DNA of 64,000 nt from Limosilactobacillus reuteri (GTDB lineage: Bacteria; Bacillota; Bacilli; Lactobacillales; Lactobacillaceae). Positions within the stretch are counted from its first letter, which is position 1, and each line of letters opens with the position of its first letter. The notes under the pieces are model-generated. The model searched no databases and was not told the origin of the DNA. It was given only the letters and a program-made list of their open reading frames with translations. Shown piece by piece: positions 1 through 54,532 of the stretch. The stretch spans positions 1,112,501-1,176,500 of the forward strand of contig NZ_CP139478.1 in NCBI RefSeq assembly GCF_034259105.1, written 5' to 3'. Made by a program: the position numbers and the translations under genes.

Positions 1-1509
<1,509 letters not shown>

Positions 1510-1941: not shown

Positions 1942-2433
1942 TTATTTTTTATGCATATCATTCAAAAATTGTTGAAGGTTTAACTCTTCATTAACTTTTT
2001 GGAACGTTTCGGTATTCCAGCCATTACTACCTGTAACAACTAATTTATTATTATCAAGCGTTGCGGTAAGGGGATTAGTTACGTCACGATCTTCCAAATT
2101 TATAAGGTAGTGTTCTCCTTCTTTACGCCATGTTAAGCTATCATCTGTATCCGGATTATTCTTATCTGCATAAACATACTGACCTGTTCCGTTTTCATTT
2201 AAGACAATAGCTGCACCGTCTTGATCATCTCGATACGATCCAACAATCTTTGCAGTCTTTGTTATTTTAGGCGAATCTTTTTTTGCTACTTTATTGTCAT
2301 AAACTGGATTAAGTTGCTTACTAGCAAACTGTTTATAATTTATCCCTAAAATTCCTAACAAGATTACCAGTAATATGGTAAATGTAATTAACCCAATATG
2401 GGATCGTTTCTTTTTAGTACTTTTCACCATCAT
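1942..2433 (-). CDS. Small membrane-anchored extracytoplasmic protein of unknown function
   Basis: About 163 residues. A short lysine-rich N-terminus (KSTKKKRSH) is followed by one hydrophobic segment at about residues 14-33 and a polar domain predicted to face outward, with repeated short beta-like stretches (GSYRDDQDGAAIVL, LTATLDNNKLVVTGS). No lipobox cysteine is visible, so an uncleaved signal anchor is more likely than a lipoprotein. The track begins at a GTG; an ATG at 2433 or 2430 fits the AGGAGG ribosome site better. It lies 24 bp after the frameshifted partner gene and may be co-transcribed with the helicase operon, or it may simply be a neighbour. I do not recognise a family. Confidence 0.75.
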   Translation of the reverse strand: MMVKSTKKKRSHIGLITFTILLVILLGILGINYKQFASKQLNPVYDNKVAKKDSPKITKTAKIVGSYRDDQDGAAIVLNENGTGQYVYADKNNPDTDDSLTWRKEGEHYLINLEDRDVTNPLTATLDNNKLVVTGSNGWNTETFQKVNEELNLQQFLNDMHKK

Positions 2434-2460
2434 CACCCCATCCCTCCTAGTATTATCTCA

Positions 2461-3657
2461 TCATTTCAGTAAATCTGTCACATCTTTTTTAGCTGATCTT
2501 TTCTTTTCTTCAAGTTGAATAAATTCTCGAAGGTATTTAAATGGAAAAGGAATTACTGTCAATTGATGAAATCGTACAAAATTCACCATCATCAGTTGAA
2601 GAAACTTCAAAATGTTTTCGGTCTCAATCGTAGCGAAACCACGCGCATTTAATTTAATGTTAGGCTGAAGTTGCCAGATGTGGGATGCCTTTGAAATTGA
2701 CATATTCATATTTTTACTAATGGTTCCAACATTATAGTAAATAACATCCTGATCGTCGTTATCAACGAAATAATTAATATCGGTTAACCCAGAAAGATAC
2801 TTTTGAACATGGGATTTTATTTTTGGTTTCACTTTCAAAACTAGTCCATATTGTTCATATAATTCATCCAATAACAAATTAATTGCAATTGGACTTAGTA
2901 TTTTATTCTTCTTCATAAAATTAAATTCATCTTTTAAGTCATTGATGTTAAATGAATCTAGCTCTCTTTTATTGTTAAATGAATCTAGCTCTCTTTTATT
3001 AATGATAGAAATAAGATTTTGGTATTTAGTTCTGTAATTAGGGTAACTTTTACTTAAATCATTCAAAGCCCGTTTAAGTTCCGCTTTTGTTACTGATGAA
3101 CAATTTTGATGACTAATCATCTCGTTGATATCGCCAAAAAGCTCAGCATTAGGTAAGGTAAAGATATTTTTCCTATTTAAATTGTAGAAAGTATTAGCAG
3201 GAGTTTTAATTAGGTACCGAAGATCTGCATCATCGGAATTAATAATTTTTGAGCTTTCTTGTAAATCTAACCGTCTCACCTCGAATTCATCACTATTAAT
3301 CATTTTAAATAGATAGACTGCTTGGGTACCATAAGCTTCCTTTGCAACTTGATAAAACTCCCATCCCTCCATTGAATCTGGTGAATGATACAGACTTAAG
3401 CTTCTTTCTTTCAAATCTTTCTTTATTATTAACTCTTTCAATGAATTAATTAACGTACTTCTTAAAGCACCCTTCCTAAAGGTATCAATTGTCAAATGTT
3501 GCACTATTGCCTGCTGATAGTCTCTCGCATAATTATCTTTAACATCTTCATGAGTTTGGAAATACCGCCTATTATTAATCACAACTAGATTATATCCAAA
3601 TTTATCTTCAACGGTCGGTCTAATATTGATTTTAACTGTTGGCAAAAGCTGAACCAA
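2461..3657 (-). pseudogene. 3' part of a ~727-aa helicase partner protein, separated from its 5' part by a frameshift
   Basis: The frame is open from 3789 to 2461, but the first possible start is a TTG at 3657 without a plausible ribosome site. The upstream in-frame residues (NQLDKHIKEFFATNRL, then IDNRIARDERIEDIKAAL) look like real protein and continue the preceding gene if one G is removed from the G6 run at 3764-3769. It contains a 9-residue tandem duplication (two copies of NKRELDSFN). The C-terminus has a pattern (ARGFATIE, then ~20 residues, then VRFHQLTVIPFPFKYLREF) that loosely resembles the end of prokaryotic PIWI proteins of the pPIWI_RE group. That family link is a guess from a weak pattern. 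Downstream lies the small membrane protein. Confidence 0.7.
2947..3000 (-). repeat. In-frame 27-bp tandem duplication
   Basis: Positions 2947-2973 and 2974-3000 are identical 27-bp units, adding nine residues (NKRELDSFN) to the 3' part of the partner gene without shifting the frame. It looks like a recent slippage duplication. Confidence 0.95.
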
Positions 3658-3682
3658 CGCGGCCTTGATATCTTCTATCCGT

Positions 3683-4645
3683 TCATCCCTTGCGATCCGA
3701 TTGTCGATTAAGTTTAACCGATTCGTCGCAAAGAATTCTTTGATATGCTTGTCTAACTGATTCCCCCCATTCAGTTTGTGAAAGTTGTCCTAAAAGTTGC
3801 TTTGCTGTATCTACTTTTTCAAATTTTAATTCAGAAAAATACTCACTAAAAACTAAGTTAAAAACACTGATTAAGTTATACAAGTGATAAAATTTTGTTG
3901 ACTGTATTTGATTTAACTTGCCATCTGACCCAAATAGCATTTGGCGTGGCTTATCTTTAGGGTATAAAGGGGCATTAATAAAGCAATTTTCGATGTTTAA
4001 GTTCTTATTATATTTATTTACCTGCTTTATTTGCCATTTTTTCAAATCAACATCAAACAATGGAGCATTATTAAGACTTTTTCTCGCCATATTATTAAAC
4101 AAACTAATTCCATGTTCCATAAAACTTTTAACTTTAGTAAACCGGGAAGTTGATAAAAACAAGCTACAATCATCGCCAACCACTAACTTTGTTAAATCAA
4201 GGTAAATCTTTTGTGTAAGACGCGGCTTCGAAGGTGTGAGAAAAAGATTGCCGAGCATCCCCGTCCCCTTAATTCCATAGAAGGGTAACATATTAAAAAA
4301 TAGTCGTAATATGATTGCTTTATCTAAAGAAGATGCTGCTTCCTCGTCTAACTTTGACACCCTAAAAGTATGCTGACTATACTTCTCAACTGTTGCCCTT
4401 ATCTCTTGAGCATTTACTGCTGCCTTTTTAGTGATTAAATATAAACGATAAACATTTTTTTGGATTTTCTTTCCCGTTAGCGCATTAATACCGAGGCTAT
4501 TTTCTACATCGATATTAATACTAAAAATTCTTCTTGGAATAAAACGTTGCTCTTCTAAATTTTGGTCAACTGAATATATATCATAGCTAGTCAGAATTTT
4601 GCGAGTATCAATATCAAATTTAGCAAGACGATTAGTTGTTATCAT
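3683..4645 (-). pseudogene. 5' part of the ~727-aa helicase partner protein (frameshifted)
   Basis: The frame encodes 320 residues from ATG 4645. The first ~294 look like a natural alpha/beta protein. The last 26, after GQLSQTEWG, are out of the original frame. A G6 run at 3764-3769 (C6 on the plus strand) marks the break, because with five G the reading continues as TEWGNQLDKHIKEFF into the downstream part, giving about 727 residues. It starts 12 bp after the helicase stop, so the two are an operon and probably act together. I recognise no domain with certainty. As sequenced the protein would be truncated, unless slippage at the G tract restores it. Confidence 0.75.
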
Positions 4646-4657
4646 TTCTGTCTCCTT

Positions 4658-7600
4658 TTATTCAAAATAATCCAATAAATTTTTTGCTAATTGACTGTTA
4701 AGTTTCCCGTCAGCTAAAAACATACTGGAACATGTAAAGAATTGTCGATATGATTGTGGGCTAAATAGTTTTTGTTTATATTTACTATTAGGTTGAAGTT
4801 GGCGAAAATTAATAAAGTATACTGGATTATTCTCTGTACAATTAGCCAGTTTTAGGCGCGCCTTCTTAAATACTTCCGTTTGTTCGGTAGCATTAGTGAT
4901 CTCATTATAATCTTTGATATCAACAAAAACTTTCTTCTTATCTTTTGTTTGCAGGTAGCAATCAAATAATTCAAATTCATTATCTGCCATTGGATAGACC
5001 TTAATCCCTAAGTATTTACAAATAACCTTAAAGACTTCCTCGCTTAACGCTGGACGATAAAAATTATTAAAGATTCCTGGTAATAATTGATAATGGTGCA
5101 GCTTTTCAAAATCATGATAGTAACCTAATAGGTCAAAATCTTCTTTGAGCCACGAATTTGCTTCATATATTTTATTTAAAGTCTTTCCATAATGGGCAAA
5201 ATCAAATTGATGCTGGTTATAGTTTTGAATTGGAACAGCGTCAATAGCAAGTAACCGACTATAGTCTCCTTCGATAGCAAAGTAATATTTATTAACCGCT
5301 TTTTCGAACTGCCAATGGAGGCGCTGAATGTTTACAGGTGCATCATCACCAAATGGATGCTTTAGTATTAATTCACGTGCTCTTTGCCAAAGCTCTTTTG
5401 TCCCTTTCCGGTCTTGTCGCAGTTGAGATGGCAACCGAACTGTAAAACGATGTTGGATTTCATTAGCCATATTGAGTTTTTCATGAAGCAACGTTGCTTT
5501 TTCTTTTTCAAGTTCCGCTTCTCTTCCGGTAATATCTGCTAATACTGCAGCCATTTCTAAGGTAGTTCGTTTATTATTCAAATAGTTGCTTACAAGGTTC
5601 TTTTTTGCGGCATTGTCTATTAAGATCATGGGACGGCTACTCTTGATATTGGTCCGTGCCATTCTTCCTAAAGCTTGCTCAATATAAACACCTCCCGCGA
5701 CTTTTACTGGTTGCAAATCATTTTGTCGATAGTTATTTACTGGGCCCCCGTTTATATAAGCATACAAATTTTTCCGATAAGTTGCCCTCGTAATATGACC
5801 GTTTCCATATAAGGCATCTTGTTCGCCAATTATGTGCAGCATTTTCTTTATTGAAAACTGTTCATCGTCTCTGCCAATCCAAGTCGCAATATGAGTGGGA
5901 GCTTCAAGGTATTCGCCATCAATATCTTTAGATAAGTTCTGCATTTGTTTGCCGATTATTACTCCATTTTTACTTTTGACTAGTTCTGTTAATGTTTCCG
6001 TATCAACTGAGTAATGAAGATTAATCCCTCTTCCCAAAGCAGCATAAGTAGTTACCATAATGTTAAGCTTGCCGTTTGTCCAATCCTCTTTTATTAGGGG
6101 AATCTTTTGCTGAATATTCTGAGCATCGACAACCGTTAAGGAAACCTTCCCCATCCCTATCGCCTTTAAACATAACTTATACCAATACAATAACTCTTCG
6201 CTAACTTTCTTGTTTTTGAATAATACATATGCTGGATTGAGAGGGCGCTTATTGTAAGATTTTACAAACGAAATAAGTGCTTGCAACGTTTTTAGGTTCC
6301 GCAAAAGAGTAAAACTAACTTGACCATCCCCTGCTAATGAAATTACGTCATTAGGCCTTAACCCTTCTTCTTCTGGATATGCAGTAAAGAGTTCAACAGG
6401 AATACGGTTAACCTTAAGCACCCTTTGTAAAAGGTCTTTTGCAAAAATAGTGTCTTGCCCTTTAATCGGTAAGTCAACATTCGTAATTGAGACATTAATT
6501 CCGGCTCTTCTTTCTGCTGCCAAATAATCTTTATTTTCTTTATCTAGCTCTTTCTCCAATTGCGTCGACAATTGATAATTATTCTTCACATGCGCTTCAA
6601 CCCACTGATAATCAAAATTATTTAACATTGTTGGGCTTTTAGCGATCGCCGACAAACCATATACGTGCCATTTATTTGCTAAAAATGCCAGGAGCCTTTC
6701 AGCACTAAAGTTGGAATGATACCAATAAACGTGATCACCAAATGCTTTATCGTCATTGCTCATTATTTGTAAGTATTCATAGCCATTTGCGTAAATACTT
6801 TGGTTATCACCAAACAATCTCTCAGTCGTCAAATCAAATCTTCCTGTTATCCCATCTTCAAGACGACTTAATATATATGTGGTTTTATCTTCTTCATTGC
6901 TTTCATCTAAAATACTCCGGATGATATAGGCGGTTGCCTCATTTGCCGTCCAGTCTTTTCTTTCAGCTCTGGTTACATTTTGACCGATTTTCTGCGCGTT
7001 TTTGACGAAAAACCGAATTAACTTTTGCAAATGCTTTAAAACTTGCGAAAGCCTCAGTTCACCATGTTGATATAATGCTTTATCAGACTTAATCAAATTT
7101 AACTGTTGTTGAGGATCCGATTGAATGACTAAATACCTTTCAGCTTCTGTTTTGCCTAACAGTTGGTTTTGCATCCCAATATTAAAGATAAAGCGCTGGT
7201 TCTCATCCTTTAGCGAATCATCAAGCTTAACCCGATATAATAAGTTTAACTTTTTATAAGTATCACATATTTTTTGCTGCATAACTTTTAGAATCTCTTT
7301 ATTATCGTTATTGCCATTTATCCCCGGTGCATCAATAATCTGTTGTGGTAAGGTTGTCATACAGTCGTTTACTTTTATGATTATTCTCCGGTAAATATGA
7401 AACAAATCAAGACGGTCCCTAAATGCCAAATCACTTTTGTCAGTAATCTGGTCGATGATGAAATTATTCCAATCTTCTTTGATCTCATCGACCTCGTCCA
7501 TAATTAAGTGAACCTTTTTCTGAGAAAAGGCAGCCCAGATATGCATTGTACTGGCTTTAGGAGTTTTAATAAGGGCGAGAAATTTTCTACTCGTCATAAA

Positions 7601-8269
7601 GACAACCCGTTTCTCTTTTAATTTGAGTTCAGGAAACATCTTGAGTACCCATGGAATGTTTGCAGCTATTTCCTCTAAGATATCATTGTTACTAATCTTC
7701 TTAGAATGGGACTTCTTCTTAATATCTCTGACTAAATTCTTTTTCAAAAGCGGAACTATTTTACTGAAATCTTCATCATCTACATGTTTATTTTGAGAAA
7801 AAGAAAATTTATGCAGAAAGAAATAAAATTGATACCTATTTATTGCGCTCTTCAACGTTTCCGCAAATAATGGATAACGGTGTTTAAACGGTGATAAAAA
7901 ATTCGTGACTCTAGAAGAAATACTATCGGTATCGGTCGGCTCAATTCCCTTAAAGATCGCTTTATTTAAATAATCACTAACTTCATCCACTTCAGATTTA
8001 AGTAAGATGACATTTCGCCTAACAAAATGCTTATCTTTACCATGGTTTTCTAATTGTCTAACCAATCCCCGCCATGCTTCATCCCGATTCTGTCGGTTGG
8101 GAGTTATGTAGATAATGACATCAGATTCCTTACTTTTCATTAGCATGTCCGTTACCCACTGCAGGGCACCCGTTGTTTTCCTAGAGCCAGTTCGATTTTC
8201 AAATAATGCTAAACCCGGAAACTGCTTTTCAGCAATTTCATTAAACAGCTTAACCGTTAAGTTCTCCAT
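4658..8269 (-). CDS. DinG/XPD-like superfamily 2 helicase fused to a C-terminal PD-(D/E)XK-like nuclease
   Basis: Large first gene of the operon, 1203 residues from ATG 8269. That ATG has a GGGAG site nine bases upstream; the GTG at 8275 is too close to it. Helicase motifs in order are a Walker A variant TGSRKTT near residue 28, a DEVD Walker B (LIMDEVDEI) near 256, and motif VI QALGRMART near 863 followed by MILID, a layout like DinG/XPD helicases. No iron-sulfur cysteine cluster stands out. Near residues 1095-1120 the pattern FELFDCYL followed by VFVDIKDYN fits the acid...D-x-K core of PD-(D/E)XK nucleases. Helicase-nuclease proteins in small operons beside variable genes are typical of phage and plasmid defence. 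The defence role is inference; a relation to the DinG-type helicases paired with pPIWI_RE proteins is a weaker one. No stop or frameshift is seen in this gene. Confidence 0.8.
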   Translation of the reverse strand: MENLTVKLFNEIAEKQFPGLALFENRTGSRKTTGALQWVTDMLMKSKESDVIIYITPNRQNRDEAWRGLVRQLENHGKDKHFVRRNVILLKSEVDEVSDYLNKAIFKGIEPTDTDSISSRVTNFLSPFKHRYPLFAETLKSAINRYQFYFFLHKFSFSQNKHVDDEDFSKIVPLLKKNLVRDIKKKSHSKKISNNDILEEIAANIPWVLKMFPELKLKEKRVVFMTSRKFLALIKTPKASTMHIWAAFSQKKVHLIMDEVDEIKEDWNNFIIDQITDKSDLAFRDRLDLFHIYRRIIIKVNDCMTTLPQQIIDAPGINGNNDNKEILKVMQQKICDTYKKLNLLYRVKLDDSLKDENQRFIFNIGMQNQLLGKTEAERYLVIQSDPQQQLNLIKSDKALYQHGELRLSQVLKHLQKLIRFFVKNAQKIGQNVTRAERKDWTANEATAYIIRSILDESNEEDKTTYILSRLEDGITGRFDLTTERLFGDNQSIYANGYEYLQIMSNDDKAFGDHVYWYHSNFSAERLLAFLANKWHVYGLSAIAKSPTMLNNFDYQWVEAHVKNNYQLSTQLEKELDKENKDYLAAERRAGINVSITNVDLPIKGQDTIFAKDLLQRVLKVNRIPVELFTAYPEEEGLRPNDVISLAGDGQVSFTLLRNLKTLQALISFVKSYNKRPLNPAYVLFKNKKVSEELLYWYKLCLKAIGMGKVSLTVVDAQNIQQKIPLIKEDWTNGKLNIMVTTYAALGRGINLHYSVDTETLTELVKSKNGVIIGKQMQNLSKDIDGEYLEAPTHIATWIGRDDEQFSIKKMLHIIGEQDALYGNGHITRATYRKNLYAYINGGPVNNYRQNDLQPVKVAGGVYIEQALGRMARTNIKSSRPMILIDNAAKKNLVSNYLNNKRTTLEMAAVLADITGREAELEKEKATLLHEKLNMANEIQHRFTVRLPSQLRQDRKGTKELWQRARELILKHPFGDDAPVNIQRLHWQFEKAVNKYYFAIEGDYSRLLAIDAVPIQNYNQHQFDFAHYGKTLNKIYEANSWLKEDFDLLGYYHDFEKLHHYQLLPGIFNNFYRPALSEEVFKVICKYLGIKVYPMADNEFELFDCYLQTKDKKKVFVDIKDYNEITNATEQTEVFKKARLKLANCTENNPVYFINFRQLQPNSKYKQKLFSPQSYRQFFTCSSMFLADGKLNSQLAKNLLDYFE

Positions 8270-8287
8270 TGGCACTATCTCCCTTCT

Positions 8288-8328
8288 AAAAAAGCAAAAA
8301 GGGGCTCCTTGCTGATCAGAGAGTCCCC
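8288..8328 (-). terminator. Intrinsic terminator in the leader of the helicase operon (possible attenuator)
   Basis: On the minus strand a hairpin (GGGGACTC paired with GAGCCCC, loop with TGATCAG) at 8301-8328 is followed by CTTTTTGCTTTTTT, ending only ~20 bp before the ribosome site of the helicase gene. There is no minus-strand gene upstream that it could terminate, since nagB is divergent. It therefore sits inside the helicase leader. Confidence 0.7.
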
Positions 8329-8413
8329 AAATAATAATTCGATAATTGCAAAAAACATATGTGTTGCTGAAAGATAATTCATTTTACTTATTTGCTGCTA
8401 TTTTCTTTCCCTT

Positions 8414-8442
8414 ATTTTACACATTTTTGTAAGCGCATTCAA
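8414..8442 (-). promoter_or_regulatory. Putative promoter of the helicase operon
   Basis: On the minus strand TTGAAT (8437-8442) and TAAAAT (8414-8419) are 17 bp apart, with TGTG in front of the -10 box. Transcription from here would cross about 80-90 nt of leader before the terminator hairpin. Confidence 0.5.
8427..8442. promoter_or_regulatory. CcpA cre site between nagB and the helicase operon
   Basis: TTGTAAGCGCATTCAA matches the consensus WTGNAANCGNWNNCWW at every defined position. It is ~90 bp upstream of nagB, where catabolite control is expected, and it also overlaps the -35 box and spacer of the divergent helicase promoter. Confidence 0.7.
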
Positions 8443-8532
8443 TAACGTTTTTGTCAAATCTCAAGAATAAGCATTTGCAATTGCTCTTTTCTTTTTCCTT
8501 AAAAGAATTACAATAGTCGTGAGGTGATAAGG

Positions 8533-9237
8533 ATGAAAATTCTTGTAACGAAAAATAAAGAAGTAGCAAGCCAAAACGCCTTTGAACTTCTCCAAACAGA
8601 TATTATTAATGGTGCCCAGGTGCTTGGCCTCGCAACAGGTAGTTCTCCCCTAGGTCTTTATCAAGAGATGACTAGTAGTTCAGTTGATTATTCCAACCTT
8701 ATTTCGATTAACCTTGATGAATATGTCGGTCTTAAACCAACTGATCCGCAAAGTTATCATTACTTTATGGAGCATCATCTTTTCACGCAAAAACCATTTG
8801 CCAAAAGTTTTATTCCAAATGGCAGTAACCTGAATACTGCTGAAGTAATTAATCACTATAATCAGATTTTGGCTACTTATCCTATTGATACGCAAATTTT
8901 AGGAATCGGCAATAATGGTCATATCGGTTTTAATGAGCCCGGAACCCCTTTTGATAGCCAAACCCATAAAGTAAAGTTAACCCCTGCTACTATTAATGCC
9001 AACGCACGCTTCTTTACTTCAAGCAAGGACGTACCAACGGAAGCCTATACAATGGGAATCGGTTCAATCTTGCAAGCAAAACATATCATCTTACTCGCAT
9101 TTGGTGAGCAAAAAGCAGACGCAATCAACAAAATGGTCAACGGTAAAATCACGACCGCTGTTCCGGCATCAGCCCTCCAACAGCATCCAAACGTAACAGT
9201 GATTCTTGATAAACAAGCAGCAAGCAACCTAGCTTAA
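8533..9237 (+). CDS. nagB: Glucosamine-6-phosphate deaminase NagB
   Basis: This cytosolic enzyme converts glucosamine-6-phosphate to fructose-6-phosphate and ammonia, linking amino-sugar use to glycolysis. Family signatures are [12 protein letters not shown] near residue 35, [10 protein letters not shown] near 60 and the active-site stretch [16 protein letters not shown] near 125. The length of 234 residues is normal for the short Firmicutes form. ATG 8533 is preferred over the GTG nine bases upstream because GAGGTG at 8521-8526 is well placed. A cre site lies upstream. The stop codon overlaps that of the convergent fic remnant, and no terminator is seen between them. Confidence 0.95.
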
Positions 9238-9481
9238 CCAGCACTTTTCTGTAATGCCATGGTCTTGGCGATAATACCAACATCTGATTGGTTTAACCCG
9301 GCAATCATTTCCGCGTTGTCTGCTGGATAATCAATTACCTGACCATGATGGAGGGCAATTAACTGGATGAATAATTTAGTTGACCGCCCATTCCCTTCAC
9401 GAAACGGATGAATATAGTTCAAATCATTTAAGAGAGCAGCATAATCCTCAATGGTAGGCTGCTTTTTCTTATGGCAGATTG
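9234..9481 (-). pseudogene. fic: 3' part of a disrupted fic toxin gene
   Basis: The catalytic Fic motif HPFREGNGRS is present, preceded in frame by KKKQPTIEDYAALLNDLNYI, which runs back to the edge of the inserted IS element at about 9481. The Fic motif binds ATP and carries the histidine used in AMP transfer. This half has no start of its own apart from an internal ATG near 9422, so the enzyme is inactive. The other half lies beyond the IS at 10518-10858. Confidence 0.85.
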
Positions 9482-10517
9482 CAAGAAATAACTTGAACGA
9501 ATTTAGTGACGTAGATTAATCAAGAAGATCTCGATTGGTGTGTGCCAGTTAAGACATTTAAGTGGTCGGGAATTCAGATACCAATTGATTTGAACCAGCT
9601 GGCGATCGCTCAGCTCTTCAATGGCTTGTCCCTTGGGAATAAACCGTCGCAAAACTCGATTACGGTTCTCATTACTACCGCGTTCGTGCGGTGAATAGGC
9701 ATGGGCAAAGTAAACCTGAGTACCCGTTAGCTGTTCAATTGCCTGATAGTTAGCGAACTCTTTCCCATGATCCACGGTAAGCGTCTTGAGCTTGTCTTGA
9801 AGTTGACTAGCTAGTTCAAGTACGGCTTGAGTCATGGACTGACTGTCGCGACCATGGAGCCGTTTAACAATTGTCAGGCGACTCTTACGCTCCACAAAAG
9901 TCGCCACAGCTTGACCTTTACGTTTGCCAGAAAGTACGGTATCAGCTTCAAAGTGGCCGAATTCTTGGCGAGTTTCGACTTTATGAGGACGCTCCTCAAT
10001 GGAGCGGCCGTGACTGAACGTACCACGCTTTTCTTTAGCACGATGACGACGAATTCCATGATCAGGCAAATCGGGTAACTGTACATCAAGCCATCCTTGA
10101 TCAATCCAGTTATAGACCGTCTTGTAGGCAATCCCAACTACATGGGCAACTTGTTCAGGGGACCACTTCTGGACTTGAATCTTTTCCTCAATCAAGTGCT
10201 TAAGGCTTTTAGTGAGTGAAGACTTCCGCCCCCGTTGACTAACCTTGCGTTCAAAGTCAGTTTGCGCTAGTTCAGCTTGATACCCACTATTTAGCCGGTG
10301 AAGTTCGTTAAAGATGGTGGTCTTACTAAAGCCTAAGTAGTTAGCGATGTATCGCAAGGAACGTCCTTCATTATGAAGCGTTTCAATGACAACACGGTTC
10401 TGGAATGATAAAATAGTGGTGCTCATCAAGGTCCTTCTTTCTAATGGATTGTGTGGTAACACCATTAAAGACCTTGATGGGTTTTTCTGTCCACTTAAAT
10501 GTTCAACTTAAATTTTA
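9482..10517 (-). mobile_element. IS30-family insertion sequence inside fic
   Basis: About 1.04 kb. The ends carry imperfect inverted repeats (inward TAACTTGAAC versus TTAAGTTGAAC). The flanks are GGCAGATTG on the left and CAATCTGCC on the right, so the target was a near-perfect palindrome, a known preference of IS30-type transposases. The duplicated target is at most 2-3 bp and cannot be fixed exactly by eye. It is unrelated in sequence to the four 1279-bp IS30 copies elsewhere in the window. Confidence 0.8.
9503..10426 (-). CDS. IS30-family transposase
   Basis: About 307 residues from ATG 10426 (AAGGA site upstream). An N-terminal HTH (EGRSLRYIANYLGFSKTTI) is followed by a DDE catalytic core with ADTVLSGKRKGQAV, TVDHGKEFANY and SPHERGSNENRNRVLRRF. 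It appears intact and so possibly active. Confidence 0.92.
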   Translation of the reverse strand: MSTTILSFQNRVVIETLHNEGRSLRYIANYLGFSKTTIFNELHRLNSGYQAELAQTDFERKVSQRGRKSSLTKSLKHLIEEKIQVQKWSPEQVAHVVGIAYKTVYNWIDQGWLDVQLPDLPDHGIRRHRAKEKRGTFSHGRSIEERPHKVETRQEFGHFEADTVLSGKRKGQAVATFVERKSRLTIVKRLHGRDSQSMTQAVLELASQLQDKLKTLTVDHGKEFANYQAIEQLTGTQVYFAHAYSPHERGSNENRNRVLRRFIPKGQAIEELSDRQLVQINWYLNSRPLKCLNWHTPIEIFLINLRH

Positions 10518-10858
10518 CAATCTGCCTTATTCAATCGCACAATTTCGTCATTAATATATTTAATTGCATTATCAAAGCGACCATATTCTAAAAAATCAAA
10601 ACCTGCTTTAGAAATATAGTAGTTACGTAACTCACCCGCCCAGTCATAAAGCCAACCAAAAAGGAATTTATTAATCGTCTGTAAATCTTCAAAACTCTTA
10701 ATTTTCGGTTGTTGTTGAAGGAGGGCCACTTCCCTTTCTGCTACGCCGCGATACTCAATTAAACTTAATTCATCCGCATTTTTAATTGCAAATTTATTGC
10801 GGAGTGTTCCATTATCATATAAAAATTTTGCTTGAAGTTCTTCATCAGTCATCTTCAT
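10518..10858 (-). pseudogene. fic: 5' part of the disrupted fic toxin gene
   Basis: The reading frame gives the N-terminal half of a Fic-domain protein (DNGTLRNKFAIKNADEL, then LFGWLYDWAGELRNYYISK) and ends at NKADCKI where the IS begins. The likely start is ATG 10858, overlapping the antitoxin stop, which implies translational coupling. Joined to the fragment at 9234-9481 it would give a full Fic protein of about 195 residues. Confidence 0.85.
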
Positions 10859-11267
10859 CACCAAATAATTGCTCAATTTCCATTAAAATTTCATCATCTG
10901 GATTTTCAGCGCTCTCTTTTAGTTGCCTTACATCTGTTGCTGTAGGCTCCCATCCCTCCAAAACATTACTTTCAACAGCAAACCGAACTTGTTGATAAGA
11001 AGAAGGTGTTTGGAACTGCACGTGCTGAATCGTTAATTGATCATCGTCAGTATGGAGGTGAAAATCAAAGTCTTGAATCCGATCTAATAATTCTCCTGGA
11101 CGCTCTCCTAAAGCATCTGCAAGTGCATTAAGAATCTGAATTGACCAGGTTGCAACTGGGCGTTTAAGTGTTTCGTTAACCTGCGCAACGTCAAGGCCGC
11201 TTTCTTGAGCAACAAATGCGACTGTCATATTATTGGTTTTTAAAATATTGATGATGTTTTCTGCCAT
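10845..11267 (-). CDS. Fic antitoxin with N-terminal HTH domain
   Basis: A 140-residue protein. Residues ~10-60 resemble an XRE-type helix-turn-helix (MTVAFVAQESGLDVAQVNET, then LNALADALGERPGELLD). The C-terminus has SNVLEGWEPTATDVRQLKES, containing the [S/T]xxxE[G/N] inhibitory motif of class I Fic antitoxins such as VbhA, whose glutamate blocks the ATP site of the toxin. Position directly upstream of and overlapping fic supports this. With fic interrupted it is an orphan antitoxin. The DNA-binding domain suggests it also represses its own operon, which is inference. Confidence 0.75.
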   Translation of the reverse strand: MAENIINILKTNNMTVAFVAQESGLDVAQVNETLKRPVATWSIQILNALADALGERPGELLDRIQDFDFHLHTDDDQLTIQHVQFQTPSSYQQVRFAVESNVLEGWEPTATDVRQLKESAENPDDEILMEIEQLFGDEDD

Positions 11268-51917: not shown

Positions 51918-52625
51918 ATGGTTCAAACAAATAAATTATTAAATGAACACGAAGTAAATAACTTATTTTCCCGGGTTGCCCCCCGCTATGACTTATTAAA
52001 CAATGTGATTAGTCTAGGAACGCAGAAAATATGGCGACACGAACTTTTTAACCAGCTTCAAATTAAGCCTACCGATAACGCCTTAGATGTTTGCTGTGGA
52101 ACGGGAGACCTCGCAATTGCCCTGGCTAAGCGGATCTCTGCTGGACGAGTAACCGGGCTTGATTTTAATAAAGAAATGTTGGAAATCGCTAAAGAAAAGA
52201 CAAAGATGATTGGCAACCTCTTCTTGGTACAAGGGGATGCCATGGCGTTGCCGTTTGATGACAATAGCTTTGATATCGTCACCATCGGCTTTGGCTTACG
52301 AAATGTTCCAGATGCAGGTAAGGCGCTCAGCGAGATTTACCGGGTCCTCAAGCCAGGTGGGCAATTCGTTAGCTTGGAAATGTCGCAGCCGACCAATCCA
52401 ATTATTAAAGTCGGCTGGAAAGCTTACTTTACGGCCTTTCCATTGATGGCTTCATTAGCTGGTGGACATTATCGCGATTATCAATATTTAAAGAAAACCA
52501 GCCAACAATTTGTCTCCGCCCATCAACTTGCGCGAATGATGAAGGCAGTCGGATTTAAAGAGGTCCATTACCAACCACTGAACTTTGGCGCAGCTGCATT
52601 ACATTTTGGCGATAAAATCGAGTAG
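51918..52625 (+). CDS. menG: Demethylmenaquinone methyltransferase
   Basis: A 235-residue UbiE/MenG SAM-dependent methyltransferase: RVAPRYDLLNNVISLGTQKI, SAM site DVCCGTGDLAIAL, GDAMALPFDDNSFD and GLRNVPDAGKALSEIYRVLK. It does the last step of menaquinone synthesis. The stop TAG (52623-52625) lies at the 3' junction of the group II intron. Removing 52623-54530 puts a TAG and the shared terminator directly behind the same last codon (GAG). Confidence 0.95.
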   Translation: MVQTNKLLNEHEVNNLFSRVAPRYDLLNNVISLGTQKIWRHELFNQLQIKPTDNALDVCCGTGDLAIALAKRISAGRVTGLDFNKEMLEIAKEKTKMIGNLFLVQGDAMALPFDDNSFDIVTIGFGLRNVPDAGKALSEIYRVLKPGGQFVSLEMSQPTNPIIKVGWKAYFTAFPLMASLAGGHYRDYQYLKKTSQQFVSAHQLARMMKAVGFKEVHYQPLNFGAAALHFGDKIE

Positions 52626-52700
52626 GAGATAATTGATTAGTTCAATTATCGACCTCTCACACCACCGTACGTACGGTTCCGTATACGGCGGTTCGACAAC

Positions 52701-53168
52701 TTAATCACATTGAATTGACTGGAGCGTCTTGGACATATTCATAAGTCCGAGTTGTTCCAGTTTTCTATTAGTTAGAGAATAGCTCAAGGTCTTACTATGT
52801 GCAGTTCGCCAGTAGCCCTTTCGGGTACTAGCGAAGACATATGCATCACGCTGGGACATCCCCAACTTCTGTAAGTTAGTTACCTTAGTTTTAAACTTTT
52901 TCCATTGCTTCCAAATATACTGCCTTATTCGGACCCTCAACCACTTGTCAAGGCGTTGAATAAAGTTAGTTAGTTTCCCAATTGAGTAGTACTGAAGCCA
53001 CCCACGCATTTTTCGATGAATTTCTTCAAACATTCTTGTCAGAGATATTCCACGATTACGTTTAGTTAATAACTTCAGTGCTTTCTTTACTCGTTGTTGC
53101 GATTGTTTAGCTGGACGGGCGTAGGCCCCATTGTGGTCTACACCCAACGAAAAGCCAAGAAACTTCAA
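52701..53168 (-). pseudogene. ltrA: Group II intron maturase, C-terminal part (frameshifted)
   Basis: This frame carries LKFLGFSLGVDHNGAYARP, the thumb/maturase domain (MFEEIHRKMRGWLQYYSIGK), and a terminal GYWRTAHSKTLSYSLTN. The apparent TTG start at 53168 is inside the original gene: upstream residues VGSPLRLKFLGF continue the RT domain. A 4-bp CAAA duplication near 53186-53195 separates it from the upstream part. Confidence 0.85.
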
Positions 53169-53178
53169 CCGTAGCGGG

Positions 53179-54087
53179 CTACCGACTTTGTTTGGTTTTA
53201 TCTGGGTTCACTTTAACTTTCAAGCGCTTTTCTAGAAACTGGGTAATGCTTCGCATTACTCGTTCTCCGGCTCGTTGACTTTTAACATAGATGTTACAAT
53301 CATCCGCATAGCGCACAAAGTGGTGACCACGTCTAGTCAACTCTTCGTCCAACTCATTTAGATAGATGTTCGCCAGTAGTGGTGACAATGGCCCTCCTTG
53401 TGGGGTTCCTTTTTCACTCTTAGCGAAAAGCCCATGGTCTAAGACTCCGCTAGTTAGAAACTTACGAATGAGTCTTAGTGTCCATGGGTCATCAATATAT
53501 TGTTGGAGATACTTAATCATCAAGTCATGATTAACGTTATCAAAATAGGCTTTTAGGTCTAAGTCGACAACTCTTCGATAACCTTGATTATAAAGATCTA
53601 CTACTTTTGAAATAGCGTCATGGGCCCCACGGTGGGGACGGAAGCCAAAGCTATTATCAGAGAAAATACGCTCAAAGATAGGCGTAAGAATTTGGGCTAC
53701 AGCTTGTTGAACCATTCGGTCCACCACCGTTGGTATTCCAAGTCTTCTTACTCCACCATTAGGCTTCGGAATTTCTACCCGTTTGACTGGAGCTGGTTTA
53801 TACTTGCCCTCACGCAAACTAGCGATCAGTTCCGTCTTATTTTCTCTGAGATATGGCAGAAGGTCATTGACTGTCATATCGTCAACGCCTGCTGCTCCTT
53901 TATTTCTCTTAACTCGCAAATAAGCCTGATTAAGGTTATTGCGATCCAAGACCAGGTCTTGGATAGTGACACTCATACCTTTACCTTCACCATAACCGGT
54001 ACTACGCGCCCTTGTGTACTTTCGGTTTTCCAAACCTATCCTCGACAAGCGGTCAGCTTGTTGTTCTGTTTTCTGCGATTGTCGCAC
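53179..54087 (-). pseudogene. ltrA: Group II intron reverse transcriptase/maturase, N-terminal part (frameshifted)
   Basis: About 302 residues covering RT motifs 0-5: NKGAAGVDDMTVNDLLPYL, RRLGIPTVVDRMVQQAV, SFGFRPHRGAHDAI, DLDLKAYFDNVNHDLM, GTPQGGPLSPLLANIYLNEL and the catalytic FVRYADDCNIYV. It stops at NPDKTKQSR because AAACAAAGTC carries one CAAA too many, where AAAGTCGGTAGC would continue the frame. The maturase is therefore split, and mobility of this copy would need help in trans. Confidence 0.9.
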
Positions 54088-54532
54088 CTGATTACACCTC
54101 CGATATAAGTTACAAGTTATTGTCGTTCAGTCCTTCATCTGATTATTCAAACTACTATGACCTCGGCTGACTTCTGGCTTACTCAACACTGCATCACTGC
54201 ACCGCTTGTTTCTGTGGAAATTAAACTTATTCCTCTTGTCGGAAACGTGTAGGCCAGATCACCCCGGGTAAGAATATTAGCTTTCGTACCATGTCATCGT
54301 TAGCTTTACTGAGACCAACTTCGAGTAGTATTGGACTTCAACTTGTCTAGCAGCCTTATCCAGTTAATTCCAGCCTTATAGCTACTTCTTGTTCATCGAT
54401 GCAGTACTTTGCCTTAGACTTCCTTCAGATTCCACCTCACGGTGGACACCCTTGTCCTCAGCTCATGGTTCCGACTACTACGGCCCATAGCGGACTTTCA
54501 CCACCTAGCTAATACCCATGCCGGGCGCACTA

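Follow-up and report, generated by a model that had tools for sequence, protein, structure and literature searches.

A divergent and probably inactivated ddmDE operon in a chromosomal slot of Limosilactobacillus reuteri

Introduction

Near the start of a 64-kb stretch of the Limosilactobacillus reuteri chromosome (64,000 nucleotides of contig NZ_CP139478.1; "the window" below means this whole stretch), a large helicase gene is followed by a partner gene whose reading frame is interrupted. This raises the questions of which system the two genes encode and whether the present copy can still work. A preliminary description, made from the sequence without database searches, regarded them as a conflict operon. 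We consider, with a probability of about 85%, that the two genes form a ddmDE operon on the chromosome, that this operon belongs to a divergent branch found in lactobacilli and that it has decayed in this strain. The homology to DdmD and DdmE, the gene order, the motifs and the damage to the window copy are seen in the sequence, while the use of guides, the recruitment of the helicase and the loss of plasmids would follow by homology with the systems of Vibrio cholerae and Lactobacillus casei.

DdmDE is already published as a system of DNA-guided plasmid elimination and is known in lactobacilli. The DdmDE of L. casei was reportedly described by Huang et al. in Cell Research in 2024, and we take the PDB entries 9ix4, 9iw3 and 9ixm to be those of L. 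casei DdmDE. Our literature search, in which subscription papers were poorly covered, returned no title or abstract on DdmDE of Limosilactobacillus, and an earlier report is possible.

Results

The helicase-nuclease is a divergent DdmD

The ddmD-like open reading frame (ORF) lies on the minus strand (4658..8275) and is open over 1205 codons from a GTG, or 1203 amino acids (aa) from an ATG two codons further in. The preliminary description had reported a 1203-aa superfamily 2 (SF2) protein carrying the motifs TGSRKTT, DEVD, QALGRMART and FELFD...VDIK, and all of these were found in the product of this ORF. Close copies of the helicase were detected by scanning genome contigs, in L. reuteri WF-AA1-C (L001; 94% identity) and Limosilactobacillus balticus BG-AF3-A (L002; 91-92%), in both cases over the full length. 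A scan of 301 genomes of the family gave a match in 10, including the window's own genome; apart from the latter and one short 91% remnant, the identities were 21-29%. One of the distant relatives (L018) is clearly a DdmD, as judged by its matches to PADLOC (E=3.8e-24) and to PDB 9ix4 (E=9.6e-217).

In an alignment of 10 rows, the window protein aligned end to end with its relatives, sharing with them the helicase motifs, the nuclease E, ELFD and D-x-K. The nuclease residues E1079, D1105 and D1119-x-K1121 (4913..5041, minus strand) are intact, being invariant in all 10 rows. When a window-clade profile of three rows was compared, using hhalign, with six L. casei-type DdmDs identified through PADLOC and PDB 9ix4, the two matched with E=6.8e-27 over 1042 columns, at a DdmD identity of 17-20% between the window and the L. 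casei type. These comparisons indicate, at the level of sequence, that the window helicase-nuclease is a divergent DdmD, and they bear out the earlier proposal of a conflict operon whose SF2 helicase carries a PD-(D/E)XK-type nuclease at its C-terminus. An AlphaFold2 model of the last 300 residues of the window DdmD had a predicted local distance difference test (pLDDT) score of 47.6, too poor for a search with the nuclease fold.

Scanned alone against Pfam, PADLOC and NCBIfam, the window helicase gave only weak Cas3 matches and sub-cut-off DEAD matches. A Cas3 identity was rejected, as the Cas3 matches of PADLOC and NCBIfam were weak and confined to the N-terminus of the helicase (cas genes were not searched for). 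Sub-cut-off Pfam matches, for example that to SOGP_4th, were treated as chance.

The partner appears to be DdmE

In the window and in L001, ddmD is followed by ddmE after a gap of 12 bp, and the same order was seen in the further operons that were read. The next ORF in the window starts at 4645, which agrees with the partner noted earlier at 12 bp after the helicase gene. It is the 5' piece of ddmE upstream of a frameshift (3683..4645, minus strand; 320 aa), and is 88% identical to the beginning of the L001 partner, which is intact and encoded by a single ORF of 718 aa. The 3' piece lies in another frame (2461..3657, minus strand; 398 aa) and matches DdmE in PADLOC (E=1.3e-5) and in the PDB (9iw3, E=2.6e-4). 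The one-base correction by which the preliminary description arrived at a partner of approximately 727 aa is matched by two frames in the window against one in L001. The difference from 718 aa arises because 27 bp of the window ddmE are duplicated in tandem and in frame (2947..3000, minus strand; copies 27/27 identical), and neither L001 nor L002 has this extra copy.

In a profile-profile comparison, the L001 partner matched six L. casei-type DdmEs with E=7.1e-16 over residues 224-705, and it matched a solved DdmE in the PDB with E=6.8e-4. A DdmE profile of 14 rows spanned the solved DdmE almost end to end (E=3.1e-192) and matched V. cholerae DdmE at approximately 3e-31; because both L001 and L. 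casei-type rows went into this profile, its matches give no independent support for the window clade. All 14 rows share His 383, Lys 408 and a C-terminal TV.P...K...E signature without variation. No column between 411 and 697 is acidic in at least 11 of the 14 rows, in an alignment at just 15-25% identity. This absence of conserved acidic columns fits an inactive PIWI domain within the domain limits that we infer. The partner thus appears, from its sequence, to be DdmE, a long Argonaute that looks catalytically silent.

The preliminary description had suggested a PIWI-like partner of the pPIWI_RE type, of which the Argonaute character held and the pPIWI_RE type did not. pPIWI_RE systems pair an Argonaute-superfamily protein with helicase and nuclease components, and in this respect resemble the window operon, so that a compact system of this type with a DinG-like helicase would account for the three shared components. 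However, no pPIWI_RE or RNaseH_pPIWI_RE domain was matched in Pfam, either by the window proteins (E<=1) or by their intact relatives (E<=0.01), and both proteins match DdmD and DdmE instead; a pPIWI_RE-type system is hardly credible. The same two matches supersede the earlier statement that no named system was recognised, since a match of both proteins to an already named system was what that description had itself listed as speaking against its proposal.

The window copy is damaged after a period of purifying selection

Two core motifs of the window DdmD are altered, neither of which was mentioned in the preliminary description: Walker A has Arg in place of its final Gly (TGSRKTT; 8171..8191, minus strand), and motif III has Ile in place of its Thr (SAI; 6644..6652, minus strand). 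The Gly and the Thr are kept in all nine other aligned DdmDs. Motif II (DEVD; 7487..7498, minus strand) and motif VI (QALGRMAR; 5654..5677, minus strand) are intact in the same alignment. The reading frame of ddmE shifts within a homopolymer of 6 bases; L001 and L002 are free of this lesion. With a substituted P-loop Gly and a frameshift in ddmE, the window copy would be inactive, and we regard this ddmDE copy as probably dead.

Pairwise ratios of nonsynonymous to synonymous substitution rates (dN/dS) for ddmD were 0.15 and 0.16 between the window and its two relatives and 0.13 between the relatives, as compared with 0.10-0.19 for nagB. The ddmD ratio of about 0.15 therefore points to purifying selection until recently. 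The ORFs are not products of chance, given a ddmD dN/dS of 0.13-0.16 and two relatives that match the helicase over its full length at 94% and 92% identity.

Several results weigh against the identification of the locus as a decayed ddmDE operon. Taken alone, the window helicase matched nothing in the PDB at E<=1 and was not detected by the PADLOC DdmD model, and the 5' piece of ddmE had no significant match. The PADLOC DdmE model detects just 2 of 10 DdmE proteins or pieces and misses the intact L001 partner, for which AlphaFold2 gave a pLDDT of 35.6, too poor for a fold search or superposition. In addition, the homopolymer frameshift could be a sequencing error, an explanation that is much less likely for the two helicase substitutions. 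If the frameshift were such an error, or a reversible slippage switch in the run of six identical bases, and if the helicase substitutions were tolerated, the window DdmDE would still be working; the otherwise open helicase frame, the intact nuclease residues and the low dN/dS agree with this possibility. However, all nine relatives have the same residue at each of the two altered positions, which belong to core motifs of the ATPase (Walker A and motif III). Moreover, different lesions have disrupted all but one of the six other Limosilactobacillus copies. A working copy is unlikely, and decay of the operon in this strain is the explanation that we prefer.

The window's own genome has two other contigs, of 98 and 99 kb, which are probably plasmids. 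RepA_N was matched on each of these ~98-kb contigs, one of the three matches (on contig C2) being over the curated cut-off, while a search of the genome for Rep_3 gave no match. The first 20 kb of each contig shared stretches amounting to <=12% and <=32% of the query with lactobacillus plasmids, and much of the shared sequence consisted of insertion sequences or introns. The presence of probable plasmids fits a loss of anti-plasmid immunity and is not proof of it, as this is one genome and the cause is unproven.

The window DdmD belongs to a separate clade that includes a plasmid copy

In a midpoint-rooted tree of 14 DdmDs, the window protein, L001, L002, G210 and the copy on a Lactobacillus intestinalis plasmid formed a clade with 100/100 support on a long branch, and the nine remaining DdmDs stood apart from it. 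The PADLOC DdmD model detected none of five members of the window clade and all of six other DdmDs, which is a trait of the detection tool and does not define DdmDE.

The separate position of the window clade might suggest that the operon is closer to ApsAB, the relative of DdmDE in Escherichia coli ST38, although the tree contains neither an ApsA nor a V. cholerae row. ApsAB likewise consists of a helicase/PD-(D/E)XK protein and an Argonaute-like partner and acts against plasmids (PMC11096173). The same source gives ApsB a YxxxK..QG..K motif and reports no sequence similarity to DdmE, whereas the window partner is DdmE-like. The motif is missing from L001 and from the L. intestinalis plasmid copy (L057), and matches 2 of the 14 DdmE rows, in one of them (L068) within a MID-like stretch. 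A closer kinship to ApsAB than to DdmDE is thus very unlikely.

Three records of a plasmid collection hold a ddmDE relative. The 319-kb plasmid of L. intestinalis DSM 6629 (NZ_CP072985.1; L057:6001-11479) carries a ddmDE pair, with an open DdmE of 616 aa, near a replication-initiation gene. The annotated start of this DdmD lies past Walker A, which is found in the open frame upstream. Plasmid pn2 of Nostoc sp. UHCC 0926 (NZ_CP117770.1; L058:4476-10039) carries a ddmDE pair of 1143 and 710 aa, annotated as hypothetical, and Lactobacillus delbrueckii pLD01 has a fragmented copy. No ddmDE relative was found in 50,697 phage records, and two scans of IMG/VR gave 130 and 11 pattern matches, none of which was confirmed as a relative.

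The operon occupies one slot in Limosilactobacillus and is mostly broken

Among 50 Limosilactobacillus genomes, including that of the window, traces of DdmE were found in seven and traces of DdmD in six. In all seven, the ddm sequences are flanked by the same DUF3642 gene on one side and by nagB on the other. In the window, these borders are the DUF3642 lipoprotein gene (1942..2436, minus strand; Pfam PF12182, E=6.8e-40), which adjoins the ddm sequences in all seven genomes, and a glucosamine-6-phosphate deaminase-like (nagB-like) gene (8524..9237, plus strand).

Both ddm genes are open in only one of the seven, G325, which is the same record as L001 (100% identity). The broken copies are those of the window genome (G000), G302, G045, G323, G324 and G276. 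In G302 (L. balticus), ddmD is open and an exact tandem duplication of 56 bp disrupts ddmE; in G276 only degenerate pieces of ddmE are left. G045, G323 and G324 have lost approximately 4.3 kb, from about codon 73 of ddmD to about codon 296 of ddmE, at a common junction with a 9-base overlap; because the junction is identical in the three, the deletion was probably one ancestral event. In G324 (L062, C1:1640000-1652000), many ORFs abut without intergenic bases, as though the assembly had strung coding sequences together, and deletions in this record need care. In three other species (G262, G335 and G326), three other genes stand between a histidine phosphatase gene and the DUF3642 gene. Those in the ddmDE slot of G262 (L073:3329-7279) encode isochorismate synthase, MenD and MenH, and G335 and G326 (L074 and L077) look alike by eye.

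In the wider genome set, a ddmDE-like operon or remnant was found in 20 genomes, with both frames open in seven (G325, G099, G204, G015, G209, G393 and G657), broken in 12, and at a contig break in one (G053). Related genomes and drafts are pooled in these counts and, with no control gene for the rate of breakage, 12 of 20 is descriptive only. In-frame stops occur in ddmE of G210 and G237, each read as one continuous tblastn frame, and in ddmD of G128. In three lactic acid bacteria (G049, G388 and G547; L065, L066 and L067), ddmE is open and transposase genes lie within ddmD, replacing part of it in G547.

The division of the partner in the window, L002, G210 and G237 could alternatively be taken as natural, in which case DdmE would be a functional two-piece Argonaute. 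However, the splits differ in site and in origin, being a frameshift in the window, the 56-bp tandem duplication in L002 and in-frame stops in G210 and G237, and the partner is a single open frame in L001 and in the plasmid copy L057. A naturally split partner is accordingly very improbable.

Discussion

By homology, the intact relatives of the window operon may act as follows. DdmE, which seems to lack a conserved catalytic (DEDX) tetrad, would hold a short DNA guide and pair with plasmid DNA; the guide-loaded DdmE would recruit DdmD, which would load on the displaced strand and translocate through ATP hydrolysis, and its C-terminal nuclease would cut, leading to loss of the plasmid. The review PMC12409362 describes a DdmE that associates with single-stranded DNA guides, identifies plasmid DNA and brings in DdmD, and a DdmD dimer that opens, loads on the non-target strand and translocates with nuclease-dependent cutting.

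The window operon shares with L. casei DdmDE the order of helicase-nuclease and long Argonaute, similar sizes, the same motifs and the C-terminal DdmE signature, and differs from it in its DdmD sequence and in being broken. V. cholerae DdmDE has the same domain layout and gene order, and its proteins are covered by the profiles built from lactobacilli, but it is more distant still than that of L. casei. It also lies on a pathogenicity island (PMC12409362), unlike the window operon, whose fixed slot on the chromosome lies next to an rRNA gene.

PMC11096173 reports that inactivation of apsAB arose repeatedly in E. coli evolution experiments with a plasmid. By analogy, repeated inactivation under plasmid selection would be the natural reading of the decay pattern seen here, although it is unproven. 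We tentatively suggest, at somewhat less than even odds, that a deep lactobacillus branch of DdmDE entered one slot in the common ancestor of the L. reuteri group, where purifying selection maintained it, and that most species of the group are now losing it along different routes, which would parallel in nature the losses of apsAB, the same branch being present also on the 319-kb Lactobacillus plasmid. If this is true, the plasmid copy could act against rival plasmids. As the branch is missed by the standard profile, DdmDE may be under-counted in lactobacilli. The open, broken and deleted copies that seven related species have at the same slot form a series in which a trade-off between anti-plasmid immunity and plasmid carriage could be tested, and an intact copy in food or probiotic strains is a plausible cause of poor plasmid stability.

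Surroundings of the operon

The window opens with a 16S rRNA gene (1-1509, minus strand). The GC content is 0.33-0.35 in three 2-kb bins over the operon and 0.37-0.48 in 26 of the 29 other bins of the window. Among the scanned genes adjoining the operon, no known defence genes were found, apart from a Fic/helix-turn-helix (HTH) pair with a possible role of this kind; no PADLOC island survey was made. The Fic-family gene of this pair (9234-10876, minus strand) is left in the window as pieces at 9234-9422 and 10508-10876, interrupted by an IS30-family transposase gene (9503-10465), and is open at 194 aa in L001. A Cro/C1-type HTH gene (10845-11267) lies beside the broken Fic-family gene. Further along the window, three Rfam matches mark group II intron domains (52617-54446, minus strand).
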